DNA of 64,000 bases from Arthonia radiata. Its lineage: Eukaryota; Ascomycota; Arthoniomycetes; Arthoniales; Arthoniaceae. The notes beneath the pieces are model-generated. The model saw only the letters and a list, made by a program, of their open reading frames with translations, ran no database searches and had not been told where the DNA came from. Position numbers and translations under genes: made by a program. Within the stretch, counting starts at the first letter, position 1; the number at the start of each line of letters is the position of its first letter. The stretch is from contig PSQN01000001.1 in the NCBI GenBank assembly GCA_002989075.1, positions 595,760 through 659,759 of the forward strand, read 5' to 3'. This document shows, one piece after another, positions 18,087 to 60,084 of the stretch.

Positions 18087-20562
18087 CTAAACTGCTTTTT
18101 CACGCTCGGACCCGTGAAGATTGGGAATTTCCCAGCGGCGTGTAGATGTAGCGTTTGAGTATAGACCCGCCGCGCCGCGCGAAGTAACGTTCAGGTTATG
18201 GTGCCCTCGCGTTCGGTTAGGCTGGATTCGGTGGCTAGGCTGGGTTCGGTGGTTACGGGGGCGCGGAGGTGAGCTCGGCGTGCATATCGGCGGCCCAGGA
18301 CAAGTTCCGGGCGGTGGCGAAGTGCTGCAGGAGATCGGGGAGGGATGTTTCGACCCCATCGATTGTGGCGATGGAGGACTGCCGGGACGCGAAGGGGGAC
18401 AGGCGGGCTTTGGCGGCGGCGTGGTGGGCGTCATCGGTGGGTTCGATGGGGGTGTGGCGTTTGGTGAGGTGTCGTGGCGGCTTCTTGTTGGGGTTTGCGG
18501 GTTTCTTGAGACCCTCAGGCATGCGGCGGAGGGGCTCTCCGGATGTCTTCCGGGACGGCTGGAAATCGGGTTTCTGGGGTTTCTTGAGGCATTGGCGGAG
18601 GCGTTTGAGATGTTCCTCGGGCGTTTCTTCGACGGGGTTGGGTTCGGGTTAGGTGGGTTTCTTAAGGCCTTCGCGGATGCGGCGGAGGCGCTATATTGGG
18701 GTTTTGTTGGCGGGCCCTTGGATTGGGTCGTCGGATGATCTTCTGGAATACCAGGCTGATGACCTTTTGGGAAACCAGGCGAGCGACCCTCCGGAGTATC
18801 AGGCGAGGAATCTTCTGGAGCATCAGGCGAGTGACCCTTAGAAGAGCCAGGCGAGTGACCCTCCGAGCCAGATGAAGAGCCAGAAGGAGAGTCGCCAGCT
18901 GCCTCCATGGCTTTGGGCGCGGTTGGCTTGTAGTGCTCGATCAGGATCTTCTCGAGAGGCTTGACCTTTACGATCTTCTTACGGACCTCGCCGCCGTGTA
19001 CTATTGGTGGCGAATGATGTGGCTCTTCAGCAGGGCCAGCGACAGCATCAGGAGGGGTCTGTGGCGGCGAATGCGGAGGCCTGGGCTCTTGAATAGGAGG
19101 CGAGATACCGTCATGTGAAATATGCGGTGGTGAGCGCGGAGGCCTAGATTCCTCGACTGGGCCAATGAGAGGCTCATGCGGGCTTTACGCTGGCGTGTGA
19201 GGCGCGGCGTGATCTTGCCCTGGTACATGCTCGTTCCCGACCGATAGGAGGCTATCGGTACTGCCACCATGAATAACCACGACCTCAGGCGTCGCGGGCT
19301 CCGGCAATGTGACAGGCGCAGCTCGCTCGTGATCATTCAAGAGCTCGCGGGTCTCTGCACTCAGGCTCGGCGACCAGGGATGCATGAAATCCTCCATAGC
19401 GTTTTCGATTTTTCTCAGGCAGACGGCTCGGGATCTCCGCTCAAGCCACGATGGCAGCAAATCAGTGAGCATATAGGGGTGATCACCGACTAGCCTTCTG
19501 AAGTGAGGAAGATTCCGAAACTGCGTCATGTAATGCCCGCGTTGACGAGTTTGTTGAAGTCAAGCGAAGACAAATGGCCACGGCGCCTTTCATCAGGCTG
19601 TCCCAATCAACCCTGCTTCTGCACTTGAATGGGTTCTCGATGCCGCTCGCTGTGCTGAATGCGCGCTTTAAGCAGCTCGCCTTCATGAAATTGTCCATCG
19701 TGAAAGTGACGAGGTTGACGTCGCCATCAGGACCGGTGACTTCTGTGCACATCGTGCACATGCCACAGGCTCCGGGTTTCCCTGGTTTGCGACAAACCTC
19801 GTGCTTAAGATCGGACATGGCTTCTCTGCTGTTTCTCTTGTAGCCGTCTGCGGTAGGTGCCCATTCCTCGGCATTGACATTGCCTGTGAAGACGTCTATA
19901 TAGGCCATCGCGTTGTCTACACGACAGACAAGGGACGGCTTGGGGCCAACGTAGAGGTAGGGTTGTCTTTGTTGAGCATCAAATAGTGCTCGTACATCAT
20001 CCCGGGATCATCAGAGGGTGGCTCAACGGTGACTTGGTCTGATGGACCGGGGCCGTGAGCAATCTGGAGGTGGGCAGCACGCCGAACGCAGAGTCGTCTC
20101 CATGCAGCGAGTCGCTCGCGAGGGTATCAGTCTTGTCGAGGTCCGTCGTCGGGCATTTCGATCATGAATTCCATTGGTGACGGAAGCGGACACGCCAGTG
20201 GTGCCGGCTCCGGAGCCGGTGGGCGCTCTGGCGGGAACATTTGGGGGAGGATGGGCCAGTCTCGTGGGTTAGGAGACAGGATACATACTCATTATCTCTC
20301 GGAAACTCGAATCATCGTACAAGTCCAGAGGGATGAGCTCATGGGTGGGAGAAGGCTGAGTGTAGTCTTTTCAGTCGACGGTGGCGTGGACGATACCGCG
20401 CTCTGATCGGGCCTCGATGGTCTTGCTGGGATTTAAACGGCTTGTGGCAAGCGTGCTCACTGCATATGAGGACTGCGGGGCGGCGGAGGCGGTGCTGGTG
20501 CAGGCGAGAGGAGCCGCGAGCAGAAGGGTGATAGGGCGGCGGAGGCTGGCGTTGGTAATCAT
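18087..20562 (-). pseudogene. Decayed copy of the 21-24 kb secreted-protein gene
   Basis: Starts with a signal peptide (MITNASLRRPITLLLAAPLA) at 20562; a GTGAGC donor at about 20459 would give PTHELIPLDLYDD next. Blocks matching the intact gene follow in order: YLMLNKDNP versus YPMLNKEDP; AMAYIDVF...EEWAPTADG versus YMGLFRNV...ENWSPKPDG; CLKRAFSTASG versus CQTRAFRTASG; an intron with the same phase ending at 19500; and TIDGVETSLPDLLQHF near 18300. The blocks need different frames: shifts at about 20130, 20070 and 19960, a TAA at 19185-19187 inside a frame open on both sides, and another shift near 18600-18700. A Pro/Ser repeat region (SPD-x-PE) lies at 18730-18910. Introns could rescue one break, not all. 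Confidence 0.65.
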
Positions 20563-42944: not shown

Positions 42945-45900
42945 TTACCACCGCCTCCCATACACCTCACCAAACTGCCCCTGCACCTTCGGTTTCCCTG
43001 CATGACCACCACTCACCACCCTTTGCCCTCCAGCACTATGGCTCCCCTGACTCCTCTGACTGCCCACACTATCCAACACCCGCCCACTGTCCACATCAAT
43101 TCCACCATCCCCATGGCTAGTATCATGCTCGGCATTCCTGTTGAACAGATTGAGTATATCATTCATACTCAACTTGTTCACGGCCTTCCCGCCTTCGAGC
43201 GCCGCATTAGCAAGTTCACGCTTCTTCTCTTGTAGCGCAATAATCCGTTCTTCAACGCTGTCCTTGATCGTGATCTTGTACACCTTCACAGCCTGCGTCT
43301 GATTCAGGCGGTGCACACGATCGATCGCCTGCTCTTCCACAAAGGGGTTCCAGAAGGGTTCAAGTAATACGACCCTGGAAGCTGCGGTGAGGTTGAGGCC
43401 AAGAGAGCCGCAGCGCAAAGAACATAGCATAATGCGTGTCTTGGGGTCATTACGCAGAGAGTGCAGCGAGGCTTCGCGGGCGTCATTGCGCATCTTTCCG
43501 TCGTACCTCACGAAGCGGAAGCCAGCGTCAGAGAGAAAGGGCTCGATGATGTCGAGCATTGAGGTAAACTCGGAAAAGACGATGAATTTATGAGAGGCGC
43601 ACTCGGCGCGGAGGATGGAGAGAAGGCGGCGGATCTTTGTAGATTGGATGAGCGTGCCTTTGGGTGGGCCGTCGCTGGTGAAGGAAGCGTCATCTTCAGA
43701 GGCGTCTGACGAATCTTCTGAAGCAGAGGTCTCGTCATCAGAGACAAGCCACTCACCGCCGCCTTCAGCGTCCTCGTCTTCTTGGCCGCCGGCTTTGCCT
43801 AGGTGATTGTTCGATTGTTGAGAGGTTCCGACGATCCACTCGCCTTCTGAGTTTGTATCTTCATCGTCCTCATCGTCGACGATGATCTTGCGAGTGCGCT
43901 TTCGCCTCGCCTCAGAGGCGCGCCGCTTCTCCTTCCTATCCTTTTGGTGTTTGTGCTTCTTCTTGCCCTTGCTCTTGCTGATATCTCCACTGCTCATGAG
44001 AGAGTGGTTATTCAGATCATTTTCGCAATCGCTACATCTAATGGCACCCTCGCGAGCCTCCTCTTCCGGTATGACATTCTGACAAGCATCGCACTTCTTC
44101 GTCTTGACCGATAGATTGGAGAACATGCTCGTTACGTCGCCGAGGTCATCGTCCATGAGATTGCCCTTTCGACCCGGCTGCGAGTTCATTCCCGAGATAA
44201 TCTCCGCTTCGGTCTTGAGGTTCTTCTTGATCAAGTTGGGATGGTTACACAGCTGTCGAAGCCGAAGCAGCAGCACAAGCGCTCCAATGTAGTCGGACTT
44301 CTTCTCGCCCATCAATGCTTCAAGGCTCTTCTCTGTGCGCTCCGCGAAACGGGTGTAAAATGCCCGCTCTTGCGCATTAAACTCCGCCTCGACGCTCTCA
44401 ACATCGCGCGCAACGATCTGGAAACCTTCACTGCCTTCTTTGCCGTCTTTGTTGCCGCCTTTGCCAAAGTTCAGGCCACCGTCCTTCTTCAGCACGTCTT
44501 TCGTACGGCGCTTCATGAAGGCTTTCAGGAAGTATTGCAACCGCTTCATCGCTATGCCGCCTTTGCCGTTTTTCATCGGGTTACCAATCTGGTCTTTCCA
44601 GACCTTGAGATCAGTGAAAGGCTTGATCTGGAGAAATCGAATGAGTGATTGCAATTCATCGAGGTTGTTCTGCATTGGGGTGCCGGTCAAGCACCATCGG
44701 TAGACGGACTTCAAGGCATACGAGCCCTTTGTCATCTTCGCGTTGCGGTTCTTGATGGTATGAGCCTCGTCGAGGATGACCCTGAACCAGTGCACGCCAA
44801 AGCAGCCGACTTTGAGGCCACCGTCTTGTGGCGACGACGATGCATGCTCAGAAGTGAGCGTCTGGTAGGTTGTGATCACAACATCGTACTTCTTAAGGTC
44901 CTCATAGGATTTTGTCCGAGACGGGCCATGGTGCACCAGCACCTTCAGCTTGTGCGAGGGGAGTACCTTGTCCTTAATTTCGGCCTCCCACTGCTTGATC
45001 AATGCCAAAGGCGCGACAACCAGCGTGCCCTTGCCAGCCGCCTCGGGGAACTTCTTCTTCGGATTTTCTTTGACCCACTGCGCAGACGGTCGAGGATTGG
45101 ACAGAATGAGACCGAGCGCTTGAATGGTCTTGCCCAAGCCCATGTCGTCAGCGAGGAGGCCGCCCTTGGGCAACACGCCGTTCTTCTTCCGCGTGCCAAT
45201 CTCCTTGTCAAGCATCCAAGCAATGCCGTCAATCTGATGAGGGAGGAGCTTGACCTTCAGCCCGTCCAACGTTCCATCGTCTTCCTCTTCGTCCTCAGCT
45301 TCAGCATCTTCTTCCTCTTTCTGCTTCTCGTCCTTGGCAATATCAATGTTCTTAAGCTTGTCCGCAAGACGCTCAGCCGCACTATCGGCTTCTTTCTTCT
45401 CCACCTTGGCCTTGCGCTTGCGCAGCCTCGTTTTGGGCTTGTCTTCATCATCCTCTTCAAAAGCGCCTTCCAACAACGCCTTGATGTTCTCGCTCGCTTG
45501 GACTTGATCGACGTAATTATATGGATCAGAGCTGCCAAACCGATCCTCGCTCGCCACAGCCTTGCTCACATCAAAGCCATCATCCGGATCCCTCGTCTCA
45601 CCTCCGGTCAGATCAACCACATTGCGCGCTGCCGGTTGGGCGTACTGCGGCGGTCGCCATTGACCTGCAATAACGGGCCCTTCGGTCTTTGAGGAGAACA
45701 TCGGTCGCGGCGCAGCTGGTATGGTCTGATAGGCGGTGTTTGAGGGTTGGGATATGGGGACGGGAGCAGGACCTGCTTTGGCAGCGTTAGCATACTCTGG
45801 CCCGTACTGCGACATGAAGCTCGGCAAGCGGAAGCCAGTGGATTGCTTGCCAATAAGGTCTGCGGCTGAGTCGCCATAGCTTGGTGCACGAGTGCTCGAT

Positions 45901-46388
45901 GTCGAGGCTGGAATTGGATAGGCGTTGTTTTGTGACGTTTGGCGGTGGTGTTCTGATCGTGGCTGGTTGGGCTTGGGCATGTTGAATACAGATCCATGGT
46001 TGGGCTTTGAGCGGTCGAACAACGGGCGTTGCGCATACGGGTCTACGCCTTCACGGAGCTTTTGTGCGACGATGGTCTGCTCGTACGGCACCCTCTGGGC
46101 AGGCTGTGGCGGCTTCTGTGACGAGCCCATCGATGCGGACGCTGATTGATCTGGCGGCGAGGACTGGTTCAGAAAAGCTGGCGGTCGATCCATCGTGTTG
46201 GACGGTTTGCGAGGGCTTGCGTATTTTGGAGGCTCTCGTTCTTTGACCATGTTGTATTTGGGCTCTGGCGCAACGTTGCCTGACACTTGCTGTAAAGGAA
46301 ACGTGGGCTCCCCCTGCGAAGTCAATGTATTTGTAGGCGCAAAGGCACCGAGCCTCTGCTGATCCTTACGAGGCGATCGTGAAGTCAT
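42945..46388 (-). CDS. SNF2-family DNA-dependent ATPase (Rad5/16-like)
   Basis: Single exon, 1147 aa from ATG 46388 (1187 aa if ATG 46508 is used; MTSRSPRKDQQR looks the natural start). ATP-driven translocase on DNA or chromatin. Seen: a disordered Pro/Gln-rich N-terminal third; helicase lobe 1 with LLPHQIDGIAWML, GGLLADDMGLGKTIQALGLI, VVITTYQTL, the DEAH box in VILDEAHTIKN, and RWCLTGTPMQNN; an inter-lobe insert with CDACQ...CSDC (a Cys4 zinc-ribbon-like pair) and a very acidic/basic stretch; and lobe 2 with KFIVFSEFTSMLD and LNLTAASRVVLLEPFWNP...VHRLNQTQAVKVY. No RING finger or HIRAN domain was found, which argues against true Rad5; Uls1- or TTF2-like remain possible. Nuclear. Confidence 0.88.
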   Translation of the reverse strand: MTSRSPRKDQQRLGAFAPTNTLTSQGEPTFPLQQVSGNVAPEPKYNMVKEREPPKYASPRKPSNTMDRPPAFLNQSSPPDQSASASMGSSQKPPQPAQRVPYEQTIVAQKLREGVDPYAQRPLFDRSKPNHGSVFNMPKPNQPRSEHHRQTSQNNAYPIPASTSSTRAPSYGDSAADLIGKQSTGFRLPSFMSQYGPEYANAAKAGPAPVPISQPSNTAYQTIPAAPRPMFSSKTEGPVIAGQWRPPQYAQPAARNVVDLTGGETRDPDDGFDVSKAVASEDRFGSSDPYNYVDQVQASENIKALLEGAFEEDDEDKPKTRLRKRKAKVEKKEADSAAERLADKLKNIDIAKDEKQKEEEDAEAEDEEEDDGTLDGLKVKLLPHQIDGIAWMLDKEIGTRKKNGVLPKGGLLADDMGLGKTIQALGLILSNPRPSAQWVKENPKKKFPEAAGKGTLVVAPLALIKQWEAEIKDKVLPSHKLKVLVHHGPSRTKSYEDLKKYDVVITTYQTLTSEHASSSPQDGGLKVGCFGVHWFRVILDEAHTIKNRNAKMTKGSYALKSVYRWCLTGTPMQNNLDELQSLIRFLQIKPFTDLKVWKDQIGNPMKNGKGGIAMKRLQYFLKAFMKRRTKDVLKKDGGLNFGKGGNKDGKEGSEGFQIVARDVESVEAEFNAQERAFYTRFAERTEKSLEALMGEKKSDYIGALVLLLRLRQLCNHPNLIKKNLKTEAEIISGMNSQPGRKGNLMDDDLGDVTSMFSNLSVKTKKCDACQNVIPEEEAREGAIRCSDCENDLNNHSLMSSGDISKSKGKKKHKHQKDRKEKRRASEARRKRTRKIIVDDEDDEDTNSEGEWIVGTSQQSNNHLGKAGGQEDEDAEGGGEWLVSDDETSASEDSSDASEDDASFTSDGPPKGTLIQSTKIRRLLSILRAECASHKFIVFSEFTSMLDIIEPFLSDAGFRFVRYDGKMRNDAREASLHSLRNDPKTRIMLCSLRCGSLGLNLTAASRVVLLEPFWNPFVEEQAIDRVHRLNQTQAVKVYKITIKDSVEERIIALQEKKRELANAALEGGKAVNKLSMNDILNLFNRNAEHDTSHGDGGIDVDSGRVLDSVGSQRSQGSHSAGGQRVVSGGHAGKPKVQGQFGEVYGRRW

Positions 46389-46508
46389 CCAGAATGTTAC
46401 AGATTTGTGGTGGGAGTCCAACGTGGCAGCTGTGCCTCTGCGTAGTGCACGCCAAGTGTTTGTGAGTGGCGTTGGCGAGGCAACAGCAAATTGGGACGTG
46501 CACGGCAA

Positions 46509-47137
46509 GATATCATTCTGCGGGCATTATCGTCAAGCTTGCGTCTCGCGCCTTCTTGTACATCTGTCTATAATCTAAGGAGTATGTGATTTAACTTGCA
46601 CCCATCCACCATCCCCAGGTGGCGTTGGCAAGGCAACGACGGGCTTAGGCGTGCAGGGTAGCAGGTAGACGAAGAGATTTAGCACATAATTCTACCGCTA
46701 CGATTCACGAAAGCCGTTTTTACCAATGGTCTGACAACGCATCCGAAAGATCATACTGTCGAAGGTCGAATATTGTATTGTGTATTTATCTTGCGCCTAT
46801 GTGTCTGGATACTCAGACAACTATCTCCGCAGACTCGGTACCATCTCACAAGACGCCGTGCCTCTATATCACTCACTCCGCCCTTGCTCTGATCCCGCGT
46901 ACGCCAGGCGCGTGCTTTCACTCGCCTCCCTGTGTCCCTAGATTCGAACGCCTGTACTAGCGCTCACCCGCCCCACTCTCAAGCAAGTAATGGGTATCAT
47001 AAACATACGTCCTCCCACGAACTGCGATTCTGACAGATCTCCTTCACCGCTCAATGTTGTAGACTGGCGGCTGTTCTCTGCTCCTTCTTGCCTAGTGTCC
47101 CTCGTAAATGCCCAATAATGACCACATAGATTCTTCA
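46509..47137. other. Intergenic region
   Basis: Upstream of the SNF2 gene and 3' side of the kinase gene. No gene seen. Confidence 0.5.
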
Positions 47138-49176
47138 TCACTCCTTGATCCACACTCTGCACCCTTCCTTCCCGAGCACGCCTTCAGGATACTTCTTGGC
47201 TGACGCCGGGCTCTTCCCTCTGTTCTTGCCGCTCTTCAAGAACGCCACAATGCCCTTCGACCGACCGCTTCTTCCACTGTCGTCAATCGCCGAACTGCCG
47301 CTCCTCGTCCCACCCCTCACTCTCGGCGTCGGCAACTTCGATATCGTATTAGTATCGCTCTCAGTCCACGTCGTACTTCGCGTGGGCACGCCGCTTCCGC
47401 TGACGCTCTTGCTACGATGCGCTTGCGGCTTCTGTGGGAGCGTTACCTTTTGCTTTTCTGACTCAGGCGAGCGGCCTTCTGGCTGCCGTGAGCGGACCGG
47501 GACCAGCTGGGGTAGGCTGGCTTGCGAGGTGAGAGGTGGTGAGCCTGTTGGCGAAGGTGGCTGGGAACTCTGTGCGTGTGGTGTAGTAGCTCGAACTTCC
47601 TCGTCTGTTACGATTTGCTCGAGCTGCTGGTCGCCCGGCCGTTCTGAAGTGGCCGAGCCGGGCTCTCTTGGGTCGCCTGAGCCTTCTGCCACGCTTGATA
47701 CCCTGGGCACTGTCAGTATCTGCTTGATAGCGAAGGAGAAAGCAAACTCACTTCTCGAAGGTCGCGGCTGTGTAGTCGAATGGCTCAAAGTACTTTTCGA
47801 TCATCTCATACAATTCCGCCGCGCGCCTTTCTTGATCCGAGGCGTTCTCCTTCAGCTTCGGACGAGGCTTCTGATGCCTTGCTCGAGCCTCAAGCGGTGC
47901 CTCTTCCAGCAATAGCTCCTCGAGGTCGTACGTGGCATCGAAGTTGGTTTTCTCACTCGACGGCACAAACACCGGTGGTATTTGCTTCCGTTCCAGCGCA
48001 TCAAAGTCGATCGGGTAAAAGAAAGGGTGAGAGGTGAAGCTTTCGAAGCTATTAGCGCCTATCCGATCAACGACGCGCTTGCACATGAGCCTTTGAATTG
48101 CGGAGACGCATGATGTATCCACTTGTGGCTGCGTCTGTGGGTACCGAGGATTTGCTGCTTTGATCTTGTTGCCGAGATCTTCGTGATTCCGTGCGTCGAA
48201 GGGCCGCTGGAGAAATTGTCGGCGATCAGCACCTTCACAAATTCCCAGATAACAAGACACTCACCTTCCCATACACGCACTCGTAGAGCACGACGCCTAA
48301 TGACCACCAGTCGACCTCGCACTTGTAATAGCCATCTTCGTACACTTCGGGTGCGAGATACGCCAACGTGCCAGATTTACTCGACAGCGGCCGCTTTGGA
48401 TTCGTGTAGTCAGCAGCAACGTTCTGCATGATTGTCAGAGGCGTGTTGTCCAAACCGAGCAGAGATAACTTACGAAATCTGCCAAATGCACGTGGCCTTC
48501 CGAATCGAGTAGCACGTTGTCGGGCTTGACATCGCGGTGTACGATGCCTTGACTGTGCACGTATCGCAGCGCGCAGCCGAGCTGGGCAGCCCAGAAGCGT
48601 ATTGTTCGCTCCTCGAATGTCTTTCGTGATATGTGAAATCGCAAGTCGCCGCCATTCATGAGATCTACGACCAAGTACCTGTGCGAATTCGGTCAGCCCC
48701 TTGCGACCCAGATCGCTATCAAATAATCATACAGATATTCGTAGTCTTGAAAGCTGTAGCGCAAGTTGCACAAGAACGGGTGATTCAGATGCTCCAGCAT
48801 CTTGCGTTCTCGTATGATATTCCTGACGTTCTCTTGCCGTACGACTGCCATGCGTGTCAGCATCCACGGTTCGCCATCCGATCACATCCTTGTATGCGCA
48901 CCTTCATCTTTCCGAATGTATTTCAGGGCGAACGTCAAGCCGGTGTCCTTCCTTTCCACAATGCGGACCTTGCCAAAAGCGCCCTTGCCGACGACCCTGA
49001 GGAGCTTGAAGTGGTCGAGTTGGACTGTAATGGGCGCAGTGTTAGTGAATGGGATTTCAATGCACCAGACATCCACGCGAAACTGGGGTTCCTCTCTGCG
49101 TCCAAGCGAACGCTCCGTGGAAATGGGACTCACCCTGATCTGTGAAGACCACCGGCCTTCCTTGATTGTTGCCCAT
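47138..49176 (-). CDS. YANK/STK32-like AGC serine/threonine kinase
   Basis: Exons 49176-49134, 49024-48902, 48844-48733, 48678-48474, 48423-48265, 48206-47752 and 47702-47138 encode 553 aa. Seen: [11 protein letters not shown], a Gly-2 myristoylation-type N-terminus like that of STK32; GKGAFGKV glycine loop; FALKYIRK with the catalytic Lys; MVVDL-like hinge [28 protein letters not shown] in place of DFG (ADFNVAADY), exactly as in STK32; [11 protein letters not shown]; and [17 protein letters not shown]-terminal 250-residue tail is Ser/Pro/Lys-rich and disordered, longer than in animal STK32. Substrates unknown. Six introns of 49-109 nt, all phases consistent. Upstream lies a 2-kb region. Confidence 0.92.
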
Positions 49177-51243
49177 CGCTATTATAGACGACGACGGCGG
49201 TCGACAACAGCAAAGGTCTGATCGGCTCGGCGCGCAAGGCAAGCTATGAGATGGAGAGGGTAATGGAGTGTGACGACGTATCGATCATGCTGATCAGCGG
49301 TCTAATCAGGCAGGGGGTCTCTAGGCCAGCTATCAGAGGTGGGCTGCACAACGTCCAAGTGGCCGAAATGCGCGTCGTGCTGTGAAGAAGCTCGAAATGG
49401 ATCTTCTGATCTGTTGGAGAGAGGTAGGTCGACAGAATATCTGATCACAAGTGGAGACAGCGGAGGGCGGTCGGTAGGCGCCAAGAGAGATAGTGGGTTG
49501 AGTCAAGAGGATGGTAGGTGGCGGCGGTAGCGATTCCGCACGACGGCAGCATTAGCAGGTTGAGCTATGCAATCTGGAGGTGGTGAGGGACAGGCGGGAT
49601 TGAGTGAGAGAAAGCGGTAAGGGCTGGGACAGAGGTAGATGCAGACGAAAGGGGTCTAGCGAGAGACGGCACGCGATGGAGCGCAGAGACCCAGTGTTTT
49701 CCGATGGCGCGGGAGAGAGCGGGAGAGAAGTGCAGGTGCAGGAGAGTGGAGTGCTGCTCGATGGTTGAGTGGCAGAAGAGACGAGATGATCTGCTCGCCC
49801 CTCAGACTTAGTGTGGGCTAAGCGAAAGGAAGCGACCACGATCGAGGCAGAAGAGTTCTGGAATGTCTCTTGGTAGATGATGCTGATGACCGACGGCACA
49901 GAAGGTGAGAAGATCGTTACGAATTGTTACGAGCGAGAGTAGTCGAAGTTGGCAGTTTGGGCGGGTTTCATCTGACAGAGGTGTGCGGTCGAGAAACGGG
50001 GGCGAGGAGAGCTGTAGCGAATCAGACAAGACCTGATTGATGCCATCCCCAAACAGCTCCCCATCCTAGTCCGGCATTGCATTATTGCGCATCGAGCTAG
50101 CAAATCATAAGACCGTGCCAGCTGGGCTCTCTCTTGTACTCTTGTACCCTTCATTATCATTTCTGCCCACTCTTGCTCCAGCATCCACACAGTAGTCTGG
50201 ATCCGACGTCAGTATTGAACGCCAATTATTGTCCCAATCAACAACGACAACCAACAGCAATCGCCAAACGGACGAGTGCATCATCACCCATGGCTGGTGC
50301 CGTTTCATGCATGCGTTGCGTGCCCAATGCGACAAGCCACACTTGCCCTTGCCCGACCACGTGCGCGCCTCGTGGCCGCAATGGCTGCATCCTCCCGCCA
50401 ATCCGACCACTCACCGCGCCCCAAATCTCACTCTTAATGTTACTGCTCGTCTCATCTTTCCACTCCGACCGCTGTTATTTGCATTTTGTGTCCTCTTCAC
50501 TCGTCCGCTTGCGTCGGAGTTTGTCCCTTTGACCTCGTGCATGGTCTGATTGTCTTGGCTACATTCCCCGTACCAGTTCGCAGCTAGGACAAGGCGAAAT
50601 CTAGTTGCGAGGCTGGAGTAAGCCGTCAGATCTCGGTCCAGCGTTGCATTTGTCTCAAACCCTCTGCCGAGTCCCGACCCATTGTTCCACCTTCCACGTG
50701 CTGTGGCGCCCTTTTTACTTTGAAGCCTTTGCGAGCTCGCGGCTCGCACAAACGCCCCTTATCTCCACCAACCCCCGGTCTGAAAACCCCGTGGAAGGTG
50801 ACGGGAGCATGCAAGCCGGCGTTGCAAAGTGTCCTGGAATTCGACCCACCCCGAGGGTTCGGTGTCGCTCAGTGTGCGGAAATCATGGTAGATACGGTGG
50901 TATTCTTGACTAGATACAGTCTCTTTATCAATCTTCGCTCATTTTAGATGCGTTGCATGGCAATCTCTCCGAAGACTCCAGCTGAACCAGAATAGTCTGC
51001 ACGCGGACAGCTTCTTGCTTGATGATCTCCATAATGTTTCCCGGAACGCCGGCACCCAGATCCAAACGTCAAGACACTCAGGAGTGAGATCCATGATCGA
51101 CACACGCCGTCTTCCGGTCGATCATAACACGTCACGTTGCAGTTGCATGCTCGTCCATCTCATGTCATATCGTGATGTCGCGTGATCGTCTTTCTTCAAG
51201 GATCTTGCATGCAACATTGCGGCTCCCTGGGCGCGGCGAACTC
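49177..51243. other. 2-kb intergenic region upstream of the kinase
   Basis: The minus strand is C/T-rich at 49550-49800, as in a long kinase leader. Plus-strand ORFs around 50134-50550 are low complexity and not called. Nothing else recognised. Confidence 0.5.
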
Positions 51244-52303
51244 TTACAGCTCGTCCATGTTGCCCGCCGGCTCATCGTCCTCATCTCCAGATTGATAACT
51301 CCCCACTGAGCTCATCTCATCGTCGGACTCGCTGTCGCCGCCGGCGTCGTCCGCAGCTTCTTTGGACGCGAAACGGGACACGTAATCTGCTCATTTTGTC
51401 AGCGATGCTCGAGATGCGGCGACCCAGAGGATGCCTCTCGTGAGCAGCAGAGCTGACCTTTCACCTTGGCTTCATAGCCGTCCTTGTCTCGCATCATCAA
51501 GGCAGCTGCCTCGCCGTTGAGCGGGTCCGTGGGGTTTGGATATCGCAGCAGTTGCGGAAGGAACACCTCGAAGATGTTGACCATATCATACATCGGTGAC
51601 CAGGTCTGGTTGATGACATCGAGGCAGACAGAGCCGGACCTACGATGTTCGTCAACACATCAAGCCCTCCCATGGAGTCAAAGGTGTGGGGGTCCCACAT
51701 TTCATCAATGTTCGGATGGAAGATGCGATTCACGAAGCCTATACTGGGGCTCTTGTAGGGATACTGGTCGGGAAGCTCGACATGGATCTTCCACAAACCG
51801 CCGGAAAAGGGTGCTGCCGCATATCAGCGACCTGAATCTGAGCATAGTAATGGCCGGGCACACTGACTCTCCGTTGGGCCTTTGAATCGTACGAAGAACT
51901 CTTGCCTGAGAGATTGTCAGCTTTGGGTGCTTGTAGATGCCAGCTTGCGTTTTCATGAACGAACACTGCAGCATGATGGTCAGTGTCTTGCTTTAAAACG
52001 AACGCTTAGCGATTCACAGATAAGCTATGTCACCTACTGTTATCATTGACCAGAGTCACCTCGTAGTCGCTCATGAGCCTGGTATCATGTCAGACAGCCG
52101 AGCTGCTGTATCAATCTAGCTACCCCGTTGATAGTGGACGTACATCCTAATACATAGTCAGCATTTGTCGTAGGGTAGTATCTTTCCATATGCCTTACTT
52201 CATGACCTGTATCGAAAAGACCTTCTGTCAGTCAATGGTCTCTTCAGATGCTGGATATACAGCCACTCACGTCTGTCTCGATCCGGCGCTTCGGACTACT
52301 CAT
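51244..52303 (-). CDS. UBC8: E2 ubiquitin-conjugating enzyme Ubc8/UBE2H, micro-exon gene
   Basis: Nine exons give 187 aa: 52303-52271 (33 nt), 52206-52199 (8), 52146-52144 (3), 52078-52038 (41), 51965 (1), 51905-51868 (38), 51813-51699, 51639-51458 and 51386-51244. Joined, the N-terminus reads [39 protein letters not shown], an exact fit to Ubc8/UBE2H. The active Cys85 is in [13 protein letters not shown] and HPN is at 74-76; the tail is Asp/Glu/Ser-rich as in the family. Known: yeast Ubc8 serves the GID ligase that degrades gluconeogenic enzymes. Each intron has GT-AG ends. Skipping the 3-nt exon loses one Met (VMKLMSD); the frame needs the 1-nt exon. Assignment very sure; tiny exons rest on frame and family match. 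Confidence 0.88.
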
Positions 52304-52953
52304 CTTCACTCTTGCGCAAGGCCACTGAGGCCTTGACTGATCTCTCTTGGGATAGGAAGCGGGGATGCCGGCGGGTTTCAGTCAATGGATGTTGATGGAC
52401 GTCGTCCGTGCCTCAGAGCCTCTTGGAAGTAGGTAATGCTCTTTGCAGGTCTTTTGATCGTGTGTCGAGCTGAAGAAGCGTGCAGAGCTGCTTTTTGTCT
52501 GTCGCCCTTCAATGGGGAGGCGTTCAGTGGTGTGCTAAGGCCGAGCTCGTGGAGCTTTCGTCGGGTATGCGCTGCTGTGACGACTCTGTTGAGCAATCTG
52601 TGTAGGGAAGTATTAGCCAAAGAAAGGACAGTAGGCTTAACAAGGTCGATCAGGGATGAACGAGCGAGGGAGACCTGATGATGAAGAGCGTCAGATGATG
52701 GCGGTCTTGCGCGCTCGGCACCTTGCGGGGCGCTTTCACGCAATCGGCCGAGTGACCTTTCTTATCAACCAGCTTATCCGCTCGACAAAGACATTACCTA
52801 CACGCAAGAGCTTATTCTCACATAAATGAGTGGAGCATGTTGAAAATGATTGATAACATAGTCAGTATATACAGCTAGCCCTACGGGTCATCCAGTCGTA
52901 CATCCATCCTCCTAGAGCCAACTTCGATAGACGCAGAGGTGCAAACGTCCACT
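52304..52953. other. Intergenic region
   Basis: Upstream of Ubc8 and 3' side of MsrB. The 121-codon minus ORF at 52378-52743 lacks features. No gene called. Confidence 0.5.
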
Positions 52954-53649
52954 CTATAATTTCTCCTGGCTGATCTTGCCACTACCATCACCCTTCTCAT
53001 TCCCAAAGTTGATGCTCACGCTGTTGACGCAATGCCGTTCATTAGTAGGGGTGTCGTACCCCTCGCCTTTGAAGATATGTCCAAGATGACCCCCGCAGTT
53101 GCTGCACACGATCTCCGTCCGCTCCATACCAAACGTCGTGTCGGTGTGTCGCGTCACGGCGCCCGGAATCGCATCGAAGAATGCTGGCCAGCCGCACCCG
53201 CTCTTGAACTTGTGGTTCGCCCGGTATAGTGGCGCTTCGCAGGCTCCGCAATTGTACGTTGTTGTATCGTCCGGCGAGGGCTGTTGTTTGTCAAAGACGC
53301 CGGTGCCGGGAGCTTCTGTGCCTTTCTCTCGAATGACTCGGAATTGCTCTGCGTAGGTATGTTAATCTCCGTCCTTCGTTCCTCGCGCGGACATGACGGA
53401 GGCTCGAGGGGGCGTACCTTTAGTCAAGATCGCCTGCCACTCGTCGTTGCTCTTTTCCACGGGATAAGACATGTTTCGTGTAGGTGCTGTACTGAATAGA
53501 GACGAGAATAAAGAAGGCACCATAGGAGGTCTAAAGCTTGATGCCCTTGAAAGAGCTGCGAAAGGCTGCTGAGTAGGAATGTATCGCGAGGTGAAGTTTG
53601 AGACGGCGTAGATGGACTGGACTACTTTGGCAAGAGATGGAGGGCGCAT
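52954..53649 (-). CDS. MXR2: Methionine-R-sulfoxide reductase (MsrB), with 1-nt frameshift
   Basis: Exons 53649-53418 and 53349-52954. The enzyme reduces methionine-R-sulfoxide. Exon 1 encodes a basic Ser-rich mitochondrial-type leader then MSYPVEKSNDEWQAILTK. Exon 2 encodes REKGTEAPGTGVFDK, CGAC and CSNCGG (the zinc Cys4 set), FKSGCGWPAFFDAI, RHTD, GHLGHIFKGEGY and the catalytic RHCVNS. The splice gives EQF correctly, but the next bases are TTCCCGAG where the family needs TTC-CGA, one C too many, so the rest lies one frame off and would stop early. No intron can correct it. Either a real mutation or a sequence error. Length otherwise matches fungal MsrB with a leader. Confidence 0.8.
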
Positions 53650-54560
53650 GTGGTAGTTTCAAATACTCAAGGGCTGCTGGAAGGCTGTGCTGCTCGACAG
53701 GATCTGTATTTTGAGATTGAAGCTTCTCGATGCTCTGGAATCGCCGCACCGCCTGATTCCATAGCACGTCATCAATTGTCCTTTCACGCTAGTGGTGCTA
53801 GCCTTTCGCGATGACTAAGCAGCTGTTTCCTCATCATCGAGTCGCTCTTTCGACTTATCGCTGTGCATGCTCCTGCCGATGCCCCTCAACGTCAACACAC
53901 TGTCTTGCCGACGTAGTTGTCGGAATTAGGCCCGTGCCAGCGTTGGCGGTGGGTGGTTAACAGCCATTGGTATGCAGAGTGTATACAGCAGTGCTCCTGT
54001 CATCCCGCCCTCCGAGGTTTGCGCGTTTGTTACGCGGGTCACAAGTCGAAGTAAGAAAAGCATACATAGTTCCTCGAATTTCATAGATCTGGCCAATACA
54101 ATTTCCATTCGAAATAAACCTTTCAATCACTCTCTCCGCCCGTTCCAATTTTGCGGGTTCGCAGGTAAGGCTGCTTCTCGCAAGCAAGGCTGCTTCTCGC
54201 AAGTAAGGCCGCTTTTCGCATACTATTTTCAACGTGTATGCAAACCATTCGTCAATCAACTCATGAGCACAGAGTTACACTTGCCCTTCTCATAAGAACC
54301 ACCTTCCTTCTGTCATAAGCCGGAGCCGAACATAATCAAGGTGGATTTCGAAGACGCGTTTGCCGTATGCGTGCGCGACAGCCATGTTGCGGAGGCTCTG
54401 ACCCCTGTCACCAAGTCATGAATACAGTGTCCTCTTGCAACTACTAGGGCAAACACGGTATATATTACGGGATGCGTTAACCATACACAGCTCTGCTTTG
54501 GCCTGCGCATTTCAAGCGCTTCCGTTCGGACGCTAATCTAAATTTTCATTGAGATTTACA
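53650..54560. other. Divergent intergenic region
   Basis: Between MsrB and the hydrolase. 54160-54220 holds a short direct repeat (GCAAGCAAGGCTGCTTCTCG-type, AAGGCTGCTTCTCGCAAG repeated two to three times). No gene seen. Confidence 0.5.
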
Positions 54561-55673
54561 ATGCCGCAGAGTGATTCAGCTTTCTATAAAGCTTGGGACG
54601 TTGAAATATCCATCCCGAAGCAGAAACATGCAAAAACGGCGAGCGTTGAGGGCGGTCGAAAGATTCAATATTGGTCACAGTGAGCTCCTCTACCTCTGCT
54701 AATCTGCGCCTGCTAACGCATTCAGCGAGCCAGAAAAGCCCGTTGAATGGCTGCTGGTCAACGTAACCGGCTTGCGGAGCGTCAACACCGACCAGCGCTT
54801 CGACGATACCCTTCAGTACTTCGACACTCTGCAGCATCGCATGATAATCGTGCAAACAAATTATCCTGGTTACGGCGACACCTCACTCCCTTCTCAAGAA
54901 AAAAGCAGGTTTGAGACCCTTGTTTCGGACACGGTGGAAGTCGTGAACCACGTGGCTCGACGCAGGAAATTGAAGTTAATATACTTTGGGACTTCGATGG
55001 GTAAGCCGTGGCCTGTATTTCCTGTGGGATCTGAAGTTTATTTACATGCTATCTCTCAGGTGCCGCAGCGTGCTTCTCGGTAATGTCGCAGGACAGCAGG
55101 TTCAAGCTTGGCATCCGTGTCTGCGGACCGCGCACGTTCGACGATATCTACCTCGATGGCAAATTGGGCGAGTCACTCAAAAGCCATAAGCATGAACAAC
55201 GCCTGATTCCCTTCAAGATGTTCAAAGACCCCGATTACCTCCTTGGGGACGACCAAGTATGTTTGAAGAGGCGGATTATGAAGAAAGTCGCGCCAGTGTA
55301 CATGTTCCACAATTTCGATGATAAAGTCGTTCCGCTGTCGGCATCCGAAGTACGTGTCAAGCTGGTGACAAACAACGAGAGATCCACAGCTGTTTCGGCT
55401 GACACATTTGGGTAGGAAATTTGGCACAAGATTGCATCGAGGCACGAGTCGCTTTTAAACAGCGGCTACGAAAAGCAATCGGCATTGATCGTAATGAAGA
55501 CAAAAGGGCAAGGACACGTGTCTGCACGTTGGGATCACCGCAAGCCTATCTTTGACTGCATAAGCGCGCATATTGACCCGAACAGTGGATCGGGGAGTGA
55601 AGCGAACAGATACTTGGGCAAGCAGACGGATATCGAGCTCGCGGATGTCAAGTGGAATTTGCCTGGATGGTAA
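54561..55673 (+). CDS. Alpha/beta hydrolase-like protein
   Basis: Exons 54561-54679, 54726-55000, 55060-55411 and 55463-55673 encode 318 aa. Seen: IIVQTNYPGYGDTSLP (oxyanion region), the nucleophile elbow GTSMGGAA with Ser130 formed across the second splice, NFDDKVVPLSA (acid residue of the triad) and KGQGHVSARW (candidate His). The order Ser-Asp-His fits the fold. Substrate unknown; no signal peptide. Without the third intron (51 nt, GTAGGA...AACAG) an in-frame TAG at 55413 would stop the protein before the His, so the intron or a readthrough matters. The end ELADVKWNLPGW is duplicated at 57.2 kb. Confidence 0.65.
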
Positions 55674-56490
55674 GACATGCAGCGATGAAGCCCGGACTTC
55701 GACCGTGACAATCGGTGGGCCCACTCCTGGTTGGACGCGGAATTTGTGCGTCGTAACTCACAGATTCGGCGTGTATCACAACGGCTAATTCTGGTTGTCA
55801 AACGTCCCACCTCTCATCTCTCCACACTGCCTCGGGTGTAACTGCGTTTGCACAGCCTAGGCTGCCTTTCGCGTAGGATTTTTTCGCTGCGCTATACAGC
55901 AATTCTCAAATCGAGTATGAGTAGAGAACTACAACTAGACTGAAGATAGAGCATTTCCTTCTGTTGCGAACCGGGGCCAGGCATGGCCGAGGTTGATATG
56001 CGTAAAAGAATGTTCGTCGTGCACAAGTGCAACACGAGATTCTTGAGTGTTAAGAATATGCGTGTCATGGGGGGTGATCATGGCGTCGCCATGCAACTCT
56101 TTCGTCAGTGACCGCGTCCACATTTCTGAGTCATAATGAGGTGTGCGGAAGTTTCGAGTCGCGTGCTTACCGGCTTGATCAAGTCGCGCTTGCTGTTCCT
56201 TCCAGCTTGCCGCGCCCATCAAAACAGCTGGCAAGCCGTAAAGCGCGCGTTCACGATCTGAAGCACCTGAGACGCAGCGCCAACGGGCGACTCTGTATGC
56301 TGAACGTCGAGCGTACACGTGGGAACCTTTCAAGAAAAAAATTAGTCGTGGAGACACTGCAGAGCTGGCGTCGCTAGCCGCCCTTGGGATAATAGAATTG
56401 CTTATCCTCCACAAAGGCTCTGCTTACGGTGAGTGGTTCTGACGTTGGACTCGTGAGCTATGCTGACACGCACAGCAGGAACTCAGCAGC
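55674..56490. other. Intergenic region
   Basis: Between the hydrolase and a membrane-protein gene on the same strand. Short ORFs not supported. Confidence 0.45.
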
Positions 56491-57120
56491 ATGCCAAACT
56501 TACAGCCACCACCATATCTCGATCACCACTTTGCCACGAGCGTAACTGACCAAGCTCCTGGCGTGGCGCAAAAAGACCCCCGCGGATCTATAACCGACAT
56601 CGACCTCAAGCTCAACGACGAAGAGGCTCAGCTAATACCCTCAGCCGAGCGAGCTCTCGATCAAGTCACCCAAAGCTCAACGCCGCGCTCCTATATCTGG
56701 TTTTCAACATGCTGCACATACCTCTGCAACACCGCCCTCCTCGTCCGCATCCGCAGAATCCCTGCTGGTCACTACTACCTCCTCTTCTGGCTCACCACCA
56801 CGATCCTCCTCTTCGCCAGCCACATCGCCTTCCACGACCCTGATACCCATACGAACTGGCTCTGCAAGCCCGGCTTGATGTACCCAGTGCTGGACGAGTC
56901 ACTCAAGATCCTTCCGTTCACGCTCCTCTGCTCCGTTTGGACTATTGGCCTCTTTTCTCTCATTAATCAGTTGAATAGGGGCTGGTTCTTCAGCTATGAG
57001 GGAGATCAGATCTGTTTTGATGTTGGTGGTGGGATAATGGCGGGGTTGCTTGTGTCTTTGGTCATGCCGGTGTGGAGCCCGCTTTTGGAGGTGCCGTGGC
57101 CTGTTTGCGTGGGTCGATAA
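56491..57120 (+). CDS. Uncharacterised membrane protein, 209 aa
   Basis: Single exon; not recognised. A hydrophilic N-terminus (1-68) is followed by hydrophobic spans at about 69-85 (YIWFSTCCTYLCNTALLV), 94-110 (YYLLFWLTTTILLFAS), 138-158 (ILPFTLLCSVWTIGLFSLI) and 180-198 (GGGIMAGLLVSLVMPVWSPL), probably four helices. No family signature known to me. It sits in a stretch of damaged genes and may itself be recent. Confidence 0.55.
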   Translation: MPNLQPPPYLDHHFATSVTDQAPGVAQKDPRGSITDIDLKLNDEEAQLIPSAERALDQVTQSSTPRSYIWFSTCCTYLCNTALLVRIRRIPAGHYYLLFWLTTTILLFASHIAFHDPDTHTNWLCKPGLMYPVLDESLKILPFTLLCSVWTIGLFSLINQLNRGWFFSYEGDQICFDVGGGIMAGLLVSLVMPVWSPLLEVPWPVCVGR

Positions 57121-57178
57121 GGCTACTTGAAGTTGCTGCGGTGTGTGGGTTGCATACACGCGGGTTTTGAGCCCAGCA

Positions 57179-57259
57179 GTGCTGAGTGAAGCGAAGCAAC
57201 ACTTAAGCAAGCGGGCGGAGATTGAATTTGCTGAAACCGAGTGGGATCTGCTTGGATGG
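57179..57259 (+). pseudogene. Duplicated tail fragment of the hydrolase
   Basis: VLSEAKQHLSKRAEIEFAETEWDLLGW matches the hydrolase end SEANRYLGKQTDIELADVKWNLPGW at 55593-55670 in order and length. No elbow or acid block is near it, and the frame runs on without a stop at the matching place. Seen: only the C-terminal block. A remnant of a second copy is the simplest reading. Confidence 0.6.
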
Positions 57260-57692
57260 GAACAGTGGTACAGACTGTCGGTACTATCGGCTAATGACAT
57301 CAGTGCGGGTGCTGTCCATCGACAGGGAAGGCTGCAAGGCCGTAGAGAATGCAGGGCGACATGTTGTTCTATTCCAGAGGTCCTCCTGGGTCGTAGTGAA
57401 TTCGACGGATCAGCGGCAGCCTGCGGCTTTCGATCGCCATCCTCCTCGAAGCGCACAGCCGCCAATGTCATCAACGTATTCAGATAGGCTCAAGGTCAAG
57501 TCACGATTGCAGGCAATCCAGGCAGAGACAACCAGGCAGAGACAACTCTTCCTGTTCCACCATGTACACACAACCTCCATTCTGAAAACTGTTTGTGTCG
57601 TGCTAGTATGATGGTGCGGCGCTATCAATGCTCCCGTGACTGCTCGCAGCTATTCTGTGTTCCTGCCGTGTGGTGATTGACTACTGACCGCT

Positions 57693-60084
57693 TCAGGCAA
57701 ACTTCCAGCCCTGATCAGTCTCCGTCAACTCCACCCGCTGCCTCTTCGCTAGCTCTTCAATGTCTTCAATCTTCAGTTTCTTCTGCTGCGCCAACTTGAC
57801 CGAAGGTTTGAAGTCGTCCAGACCGTAGAGCAGCAGAGGTAGAATACTGCCCTTCCAGTCTTTCTCAGGCCTACCCCGGTCCTTGAACAATATGAGTGTC
57901 GTTGGGACGAGGCTGCTGAGAACCAAAAGGATGGCGATGGCGAGATAAGTCAGCCATACCCAGCGTATGTGGTACACTGTCACATAGGTTTGAGAAATCT
58001 CTGGCGCGGGTACGCTAAAGCGCCCGGGAGCTCCGTTTTGCCGTACGTAGACGCTTGCAGAGTGGGCGACCCTCGCAAAGGATTCGTTGAGCGTAGAGAC
58101 GTTAAAATCGCCGTGGTTGAACAGCTGCGAGATGTAAGATGAGCTGTGCACCCGCCCTGCCTCATCTATACAACTCCTAGGGCTCGAAAATTGCAGTTTC
58201 TCACCAGGCCAATGCAAGTCTTGGGCCATGGTGCCTGTATATGTCTGAGCGTTGAATCGTATAATCGATTGCCCAACACCATAAACACATTCTTGGTATT
58301 TGTCTATGATAAGACTCGGTTTAATAAGCCAAGTTTCAGTAAGGGAAAACTCCGGCTCAGGAACGATTATATGTAGATCGTGTTGTAAGTACTCCTCCCA
58401 CGCTGCGGTGGCAAACCAGGATTCCTGGTTCTACCGATACTACACTAGGATCAGGGGTCTCATCGCCGTCGATCAGGAGGCAGTGCTAGGCAGCAGCATT
58501 AGTAAAGGTAGGATATATAAGGGTTCTCCGAGACACTGTAGAATATCAAGGTCGGTAGTAGTAGCAATCGAGCGACAGTATCCGCTATCCCTTACAACAG
58601 ATCGTAGCCATCAATAGACATTGCGGCAGTCTTAGGCACGGTATAGTTGATGTTAGAACTTTCAAAAGCTATATTGATGGGGAAGGGCCCCGAGCCCTGC
58701 TCAGTGAGACAAGTCGCATTCGCAACAGCGGAAAACACAAAAGTGAAGGGTCTCGTATCGAGAACCGTTTCCTGAAGCGTATTATTCACGACTGATGAAT
58801 CGATCTTTTGGATACAGGGCCTGATTGAGCATCTGGCTGCACCATATCCACGACATTGCCAATTATCCTTGCCAGATTGACACGTCGAGTGACCATAATT
58901 TGGAGACTACCACGGCGCTCCGTTCAGAAAACCGCCAAGGACTGTTATGTCGTTGGTGTAGTAGCATGAGGTGACATTCATGAAGCCATCCGGTGATTGA
59001 AATCGTTTGGCAGGGGTGCTATCGAATAGGGTTTCTGGGTCGCTTTCGTAGGACAGATATGCTTCTTCAAAGCAAGTCATAGCATGAAGTCGAGCAGATG
59101 AAGATTTGTTGCCATCGTCGCTTTTTGTGACGCTTCGCGGAATAGTATATGAAGCTTTTTGGCGACTGCATGGGCCCTTAAATATTTTCCCTTCCGTGTT
59201 CTGGCAACTAGAATCTGGTAACGGTATTGAGCCGTTTTGGAAAACGATATGATCACTAACGTCGTTACACCCGCCACAGTAGCCGAGCGTGTAGAAAAGA
59301 CCGAACTGACAATTCCCTGTTGAGCAGTACGGGCTAACTTTTGGGTGACTGGTCTCGAATAACGGGCTGAGTAAAGCTTCTTGCATGCCCCCTGAGAGGT
59401 GCGGCTCATGATTCTGGGGGTCATCGAATGGGACACCGTCATCAAAGAAATTAGTGCGTGGTATTGAGGATGATAACTTAGGCGAGAGCTGTAACTCCCC
59501 TCTTTGGCTAACACTTTGTTGCGTGAAGGCAGGAATTCCTAGCAGTACCAAAGTTGCGAGGGCGCTAAGATAACCAGAGAGACTTCTAGGGCGGAAGTTG
59601 AGAACTTGAGATTCACTTCTCGCGGTAAAGTTGTTTGGTTGCTTACCTATCTTTGATCTTGTAGAGATACTTCAGAGCTCCTAGAGGCCCACGACTTGCT
59701 TCATCAATAGTGTTTAGGTCTGCAAGAGGGTGTGGGTTCTGAAAACTGTGCCACTTGAGTTGAGCAAGCGCTTGCGAAGACTCAGCTTGTGTTTAGCGTT
59801 AATAACTAGGAAGGCACTCACAAGATCCTATCACGTAAGCGAGGAGACTTTGTAGGGCTGTAGCTAGTACTGCAATTGCGGTGCCAACACTTATACTGTG
59901 CGGAGCAGTCGGGATCCGTTGTCCATCATTAGTAATCAAAGTAGCGATAGTCGCAGTAAAGCATCCTGCTATGGCGACGAGTGCAGCTATCGAGAACTTC
60001 CATGTAAGTAGGACTAAAGCTTTTAGTTGCATAATCAACAGAGTACGGAACAGGGACGCTTACAACGTGCCACGCCTTTGTCAT
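57693..60084 (-). pseudogene. Broken DUF3176 copy
   Basis: Related to the intact gene at 37.9 kb. Exons 60084-60064 (MTKAWHV), 59996-59822, 59770-59647 and from 59585 are phase-consistent and give TM span FSIAALVAIAGCF, the signature QLKWHSFQNPHPLADLNTIDEASRGPLGALKYLYK, YLSALATLVLLGIPAF and a Cys-rich ectodomain (CSTGNCQFG...CGGC). A TAG at 58907-58909 then interrupts a frame that continues as STCQSGKDNWQCRGYGAARCSIRPC. After VPKTAAMSIDGYDLL (about 58592) about 160 bases cannot be read in any matching frame before WFATAAWEEYLQ resumes near 58430, leading to the last span WLTYLAIAILLVLSSLVP and a stop at 57693. Two defects make it a likely pseudogene. Confidence 0.65.

Follow-up and report, generated by a model that had tools for sequence, protein, structure and literature searches.

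The question raised by the 5' part of the ubc8 gene of Arthonia radiata is whether the start of a conserved protein is written across exons of eight, three and one nucleotides. The gene lies in a 64,000-nt stretch of contig PSQN01000001.1 (referred to here as the window), and the genome of the window comprises 33.5 Mb on 16 contigs. The ubc8/UBE2H gene is intact, is read from the minus strand (52303-51244), and encodes a product of 187 aa from a CDS of 564 nt that is open to the stop. In the proposed model its nine exons measure 33, 8, 3, 41, 1, 38, 115, 182 and 143 nt, and its eight introns 52-72 nt each, with GT-AG ends throughout. The occurrence of 8-, 3- and 1-nt exons within one conserved gene is unusual. 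The product matched the yeast E2-24 kDa (Ubc8, PDB 8pmq_E) at 241 bits, the human E2 H (UBE2H) at 219 and 217 bits, and the further E2 chains 2onu and 1yf9 at 213 and 192 bits, respectively. The next-best E2 was of the Ubc13 type and, at 96 bits, scored far below the Ubc8/UBE2H matches. The UQ_con domain was found in the product at 134.8 bits (cut-off 27). The alignment to yeast Ubc8 is gapless over residues 1-150, passing through the micro-exon region, and 29 of the first 39 residues are identical by hand count. The motif SVCLDVINQ presumably marks the site of the catalytic Cys. By best match and by near full-length alignment the gene belongs to Ubc8/UBE2H over other E2s.

Other features of the neighbourhood were recorded as well. 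An unbroken frame of 1193 codons at 42945-46526 (minus strand), with SNF2-related and Helicase_C matches, contrasts with the heavily split ubc8 nearby. A second frame at 48235-48726 (minus strand) matches Pkinase over profile positions 146-195 of 263; since this match is partial, the frame probably represents a single exon of a gene that is divided by introns. A scan for RNA families over window positions 44000-60000 returned no matches. A pattern scan returned no matches in viral contigs and 24 in prokaryote contigs, none of them a relative, and neither collection bears on conservation.

Table 1. Exons and introns of the proposed ubc8 gene model and one competing intron, in window positions.
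Feature	Position	Strand	Length (nt)	Details
exon 1	52271..52303	minus	33	from ATG; gapless to yeast Ubc8
intron 1	52207..52270	minus	64	GTGAGT...CAG
exon 2	52199..52206	minus	8	micro-exon GTCATGAA; encodes Val-Met-Lys, with the Lys codon completed in exon 3
intron 2	52147..52198	minus	52	GTAAGG...TAG; branch GCTGAC
exon 3	52144..52146	minus	3	micro-exon GAT; end of Lys-14 and start of Met-15
intron 3	52079..52143	minus	65	GTACGT...CAG; branch TCTGAC
exon 4	52038..52078	minus	41	end of Met-15 to first base of Met-29
intron 4	51966..52037	minus	72	GTAGGT...CTGCAG; branch ACTGAC 14 nt from acceptor
exon 5	51965..51965	minus	1	putative single-nucleotide exon T, middle base of the Met-29 codon
intron 5	51906..51964	minus	59	GTTCGT...CTCAG; branch GCTGAC 11 nt from acceptor
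exon 6	51868..51905	minus	38	begins with last base of Met-29
intron 6	51814..51867	minus	54	
exon 7	51699..51813	minus	115	
intron 7	51640..51698	minus	59	
exon 8	51458..51639	minus	182	contains SVCLDVINQ
intron 8	51387..51457	minus	71	
exon 9	51244..51386	minus	143	to stop
competing single intron	51906..52033	minus	128	donor GTGACA; NDN-SR-QEF; disfavoured

An earlier note on this DNA had named the gene Ubc8, which the E2 bit scores and the UQ_con match bear out. Its micro-exon coordinates are all correct (GTCATGAA at 52206-52199, GAT at 52146-52144, T at 51965, with A at 52038 and G at 51905), and the letters also agree with its introns of 72 nt (52037-51966) and 59 nt (51964-51906) with GT-AG ends.

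Splice signals were scored with a model that was self-trained, without RNA, on 244 kb (the window and 20 further stretches), with ubc8 excluded and the loci L001-L009 left out of all training. Earlier training sets of 40 introns, mostly long, and then of 110 introns were poor or mixed. The working set contains 72 introns, of which 22 are 110 nt or longer and were distrusted; the 47 introns shorter than 100 nt were used for a repeat. At least one of the 72 training introns is wrong, namely in L014, where the frame stays open across what had been picked as the first intron. At this locus (minus strand, offset about 1464-1577), whose protein we take to resemble glutaryl-CoA dehydrogenase, a false intron of 113 nt was picked, and the frame continues to a 60-nt intron. 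The false AAA exon of L014 demonstrates that micro-exon calls made on score only mislead. Genome-wide specificity is poor, with 931 candidate introns in real and 1001 in reversed sequence. Because of these errors and the weak specificity, the tests were repeated with the 47 short introns, and frame and signals were weighed together. When micro-exons of 1-20 nt between coding flanks were scanned for, two candidates came up in real and two in reversed sequence, and ubc8 itself was missed, probably because its flanking exons are too short; the scan provides no frequency estimate of such exons. A candidate 18-nt micro-exon, GGACGCCAAAGGCAGAGA, was observed in L021 (7897-7772, minus strand) between well-scored introns (sum 32.3), in frame and with the coding sequence open on either side. 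Some split by an exon of 1-39 nt (frame unchecked) outscores the single intron in 16 of 25 sampled introns of at least 100 nt, and a possible one-nucleotide exon is present in three of the 25, the best scoring 14.6 as against 24.0 at T. For the chance controls, the outer donor and the last 30 nt were fixed and the remainder was shuffled with preservation of dinucleotides, at 20,000 shuffles per run and with one run for each splice model (72-intron and 47-intron sets).

For the region between exons 1 and 4, parses with up to three GT-AG introns, each scoring at least 5, were listed. Of the 29 parses, the one with the 8-nt and 3-nt exons scores highest (44.0); its product reads VMKMLMSD and aligns without gaps to VMKLLMSD of yeast. 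The next two parses (42.4 each) move only the first acceptor and insert five or six residues. The donor of intron 2 is weak, outranking one of the 47 sampled donors, and its branch site is strong. The main support for the 3-nt exon comes from the alignment to yeast, which has no gaps, and from the chance controls: its signals were matched in none of the 20,000 shuffles of either run and in none of the real AG-NNN-GT stretches of the genome (0 of 285 under the 72-intron model, 0 of 213 under the 47-intron model). If GAT were not an exon, an intron of 120 nt (52198-52079) using the intron 2 donor GTAAGG would be removed as a whole; the product would read VMKLMSD, in frame, one Met shorter, and lower by only 0.7 Pfam bits. 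This reading leaves one residue missing from the aligned N-terminal start, and the stretch scores 10.8 with GAT skipped against 28.5 for the two-intron parse, although sums reward splitting. Skipping of GAT thus has little chance of being the correct model; it touches the 3-nt exon only and is compatible with the one-nucleotide exon.

The case for the one-nucleotide exon starts from the reading frame. Exon 4 ends in ...GTC AAT GAT AAC A and exon 6 begins with G CAA GAG TTC, both of which align to Ubc8, and the 132 nt between them must yield one base, or one modulo 3. As G follows the A and GG precedes CAA, removal of a single block cannot write ATG with AAC and CAA kept, and the Met therefore requires a lone T. 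A single base between AG and GT is present here, and it is required for both the frame and the conserved residue. In-frame, stop-free parses were listed between the flanking exons, allowing one or two GT/GC-AG introns with a minimum length of 40 nt each. The parse with the one-nucleotide exon is the top one of 45 (32.1, next 26.2), and among the best 25 and the three single-intron parses of the 45 it is the only one to give NDN-M-QEF without loss or gain of a residue. Since summed scores reward splitting, the difference between 32.1 and the 13.4 of the top single-intron parse is by itself not evidence, and the weight rests on the shuffle and real-sequence controls. Without the length term, introns 4 and 5 score 16.7 and 14.0, and introns 6-8 score 13.0-16.6. 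The 47 short sampled introns span 45-94 nt, and the lengths of 72 and 59 nt fall inside this span. The intron 5 donor GTTCGT is weak and outranks four of the 47 sampled donors.

In each run, one shuffle out of 20,000 produced a one-nucleotide exon whose internal signals equalled those observed, and none produced such an exon made of T. Any AG-N-GT at all arose in 3633 of 20,000 shuffles (about a fifth), so the bare pentamer is no evidence, while the surrounding signals are. Among real GT...AG stretches of the genome of 112-145 nt, none of 1456 (244 with any AG-N-GT) reached the observed one-nucleotide score; in the repeat with the 47-intron model none of 1102 did (164 with any AG-N-GT). The signals around T thus exceed chance both in the shuffles and in the real stretches. 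The frame, the protein match, the splice signals and the chance rates were computed directly. Taken with the frame, these rates argue that T at 51965 is very probably a true single-nucleotide exon that completes the ATG of Met-29.

The Met-29 column was compared in 17 paralogous E2 stretches of the genome, chosen from 35 genome matches for a start no later than profile position 19. Leu, Ile or Val occupies the column in 14, Pro in two, Trp in one, and Arg or Ser in none; the Trp belongs to L015, whose match probably starts with translated intron. Among five aligned PDB chains the column is Met in one, Leu in the two human chains, Val in one and Thr in one; the turn is also shorter by one residue in the human protein. 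Given the Thr in one chain and the shorter human turn, the turn is not absolutely fixed.

The earlier note had held that the N-terminus is rebuilt only with the micro-exons, and this was overstated, as it overlooked a donor GTGACA at 52033, four bases downstream. A single GT-AG intron of 128 nt from this donor (52033-51906) would keep GTAG and need no one-nucleotide exon; the mRNA would read ...AACAGTAGGCAAGAG... and the protein NDN-Ser-Arg-QEF. Its frame is intact and free of stops, its branch and acceptor are good, being shared with intron 5, and the difference of one residue in turn length between yeast and human favours it. The Pfam scores of the models lie close together (134.8 bits for the parse with T and GAT, 132.0 with Ser-Arg, 134.1 with GAT skipped), and the Ser-Arg form costs only 2.8 bits. 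The donor, however, falls below all 72 and all 47 sampled donors, C at +5 having a frequency of about 0.01 (pseudocount included). Arg and Ser would take a position that is hydrophobic in 14 of the 17 paralogous stretches and is Arg or Ser in 0 of 17, with one residue added, and the ACTGAC...CTGCAG module and the GTTCGT donor beside T (1 of 20,000 shuffles) would not be accounted for. The 128-nt intron is for these reasons quite improbable. A single intron of 137 nt (52037-51901) with the AG within GGCAAG as acceptor has the top score of the three single-intron parses (13.4) and a good donor. It would write NDN-Lys-FF with loss of Met-Gln-Glu, that is, one residue for three that are aligned in yeast Ubc8, and its acceptor is weak (1.5), which makes it very improbable. 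An assembly or base-call error that dropped a base from a gene with one simple intron is hardly credible, since such an error, though a classic source of frame trouble, would not build matching branch, acceptor and donor signals around T, and the remainder of the ubc8 gene is clean. The exons of 8, 3 and 1 nt are accordingly retained as the best parse by splice signals and protein. Two further statements of the earlier note were confirmed: loss of T disrupts the frame, and skipping of GAT costs one Met in frame. Without T, a stop is reached after 65 codons.

With the one-nucleotide exon in place, the first 124 coding bases would be cut by five ordinary GT-AG introns into pieces of 33, 8, 3, 41, 1 and 38 nt, with the expected spliced joins ...GTCATGAA/GAT/GCTCATG... 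and ...AACA/T/GCAAGAG.... Introns 4 and 5 would each use a donor, branch and acceptor of their own and appear short enough for intron definition. Recognition across the intron is usual for short fungal introns, and with it the length of an exon would in principle not matter. Only one base separates the intron 4 acceptor from the intron 5 donor; the two sites could not both be occupied, so the two introns would have to be removed successively. Either order of removal would give the same mRNA, the second intron then being an ordinary one with its signals intact. We infer that the RNA is spliced in this way, with sequential removal of introns 4 and 5. The earlier proposal that these introns leave one after the other stands to this extent, as argued from the one-nucleotide spacing only. 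As two junctions lie downstream of the stop that follows T skipping, such an mRNA would be a candidate for decay. That the 5' part of ubc8 acts as a splicing checkpoint, in which the 8-, 3- and 1-nt exons force an ordered removal of introns, is doubtful and probably wrong; if it were true, the amount of Ubc8 could be governed by the order or the efficiency of splicing, a GAT skip yielding one Met fewer and a T skip a frame-shifted mRNA with an early stop.

Two further readings of this arrangement were considered. In the available part of PMC7138796 a stwintron is described as an internal intron that interrupts, or loosely lies inside, an external intron; further ascomycete stwintron papers, likewise available in part, are PMC9024468, PMC12403724, PMC8469720, PMC6616335 and PMC5639578. 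The comparison with stwintrons drawn in the earlier note fails, as introns 4 and 5 are not nested, neither is interrupted by the other, and the base that separates them is retained. The reading of introns 4 and 5 as a stwintron was rejected: their donors, branches and acceptors are intact and unshared, the introns stand side by side, and removal of all of 52037-51906 breaks the frame, so that the T must stay. Like stwintrons as described there, ubc8 has two short U2 introns packed together and would require consecutive reactions; unlike them, its introns adjoin rather than nest, and one base is kept where in stwintrons the whole block goes. An origin from introners or duplicated introns was rejected as well. 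A 451-base query against the genome (E <= 10) returned only the self match, with simple repeats and common words skipped, so that the search is not a proof of absence, and of the 28 pairs of ubc8 introns two reach p about 0.04 (introns 1 and 8, introns 2 and 5), as expected by chance. A 10-nt near repeat, AGTGTTCGTT and AGCGTTCGTT, occurs at a distance of 39 nt: AG-C-GTTCGTT in intron 4 (52006-51997, minus strand) lies 39 nt upstream of, and echoes, the surroundings of the T exon, AG-T-GTTCGTT. A second one-nucleotide exon at 52006-51997 is unlikely, since the first intron from the 52037 donor would be only 33 nt long.

One-nucleotide exons are already a known kind; the mechanism is not new, and ubc8 would be a further rare case. 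In a partial survey of the literature, by title or start of abstract, no paper on ubc8 micro-exons was found, and RNA-supported nuclear one-nucleotide exons were found for few genes, namely plant APC11 and VPS55 and Fusarium CYP621A. The ubc8 gene would offer a compact natural substrate for the handling of abutting acceptors and donors and for the order of neighbouring introns, and automated models of such genes may have a wrong N-terminus. Single-base exons are also described, in sources available in part, for mitochondrial genes, e.g. placozoan cox1. Xlr2 of Trichoderma likewise has a micro-exon in a filamentous fungus, which according to the accessible part of the report is included alternatively with glucose level (PMC11121469), whereas the ubc8 micro-exons are without sign of regulation. 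A single-nucleotide exon is described for Arabidopsis APC11 (PMC4674806) and one-nucleotide micro-exons for APC11 and VPS55 of land plants (PMC8831610), and in the excerpts of both papers these exons are missing from annotation. As in ubc8, the plant exon is coding, and when it is left out the frame or the start of the protein is disrupted. The plant intron stretch is longer (422 nt in total around A333), and the plant exons were proved by cDNA and reporter constructs or by RNA reads, which for APC11 were remapped in soybean (PMC8831610), whereas the ubc8 exon was read from the sequence. In Fusarium CYP621A (2026), a one-nucleotide exon G (AGGGT) was reported in 20 orthologues and with 18 SRA reads, and in the portion of the paper available the authors call it the first for a fungal gene (PMC12940212). 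The ubc8 case differs from it in the exon T (AGTGT), in the E2 enzyme encoded, in the 8- and 3-nt exons alongside, and in its sequence-based support. Like it, the putative ubc8 exon is fungal, lies between two short introns and is demanded by the frame and by a conserved motif, and in both cases a long apparent intron is the giveaway (139 nt in Fusarium CYP621A, 132 nt in ubc8).
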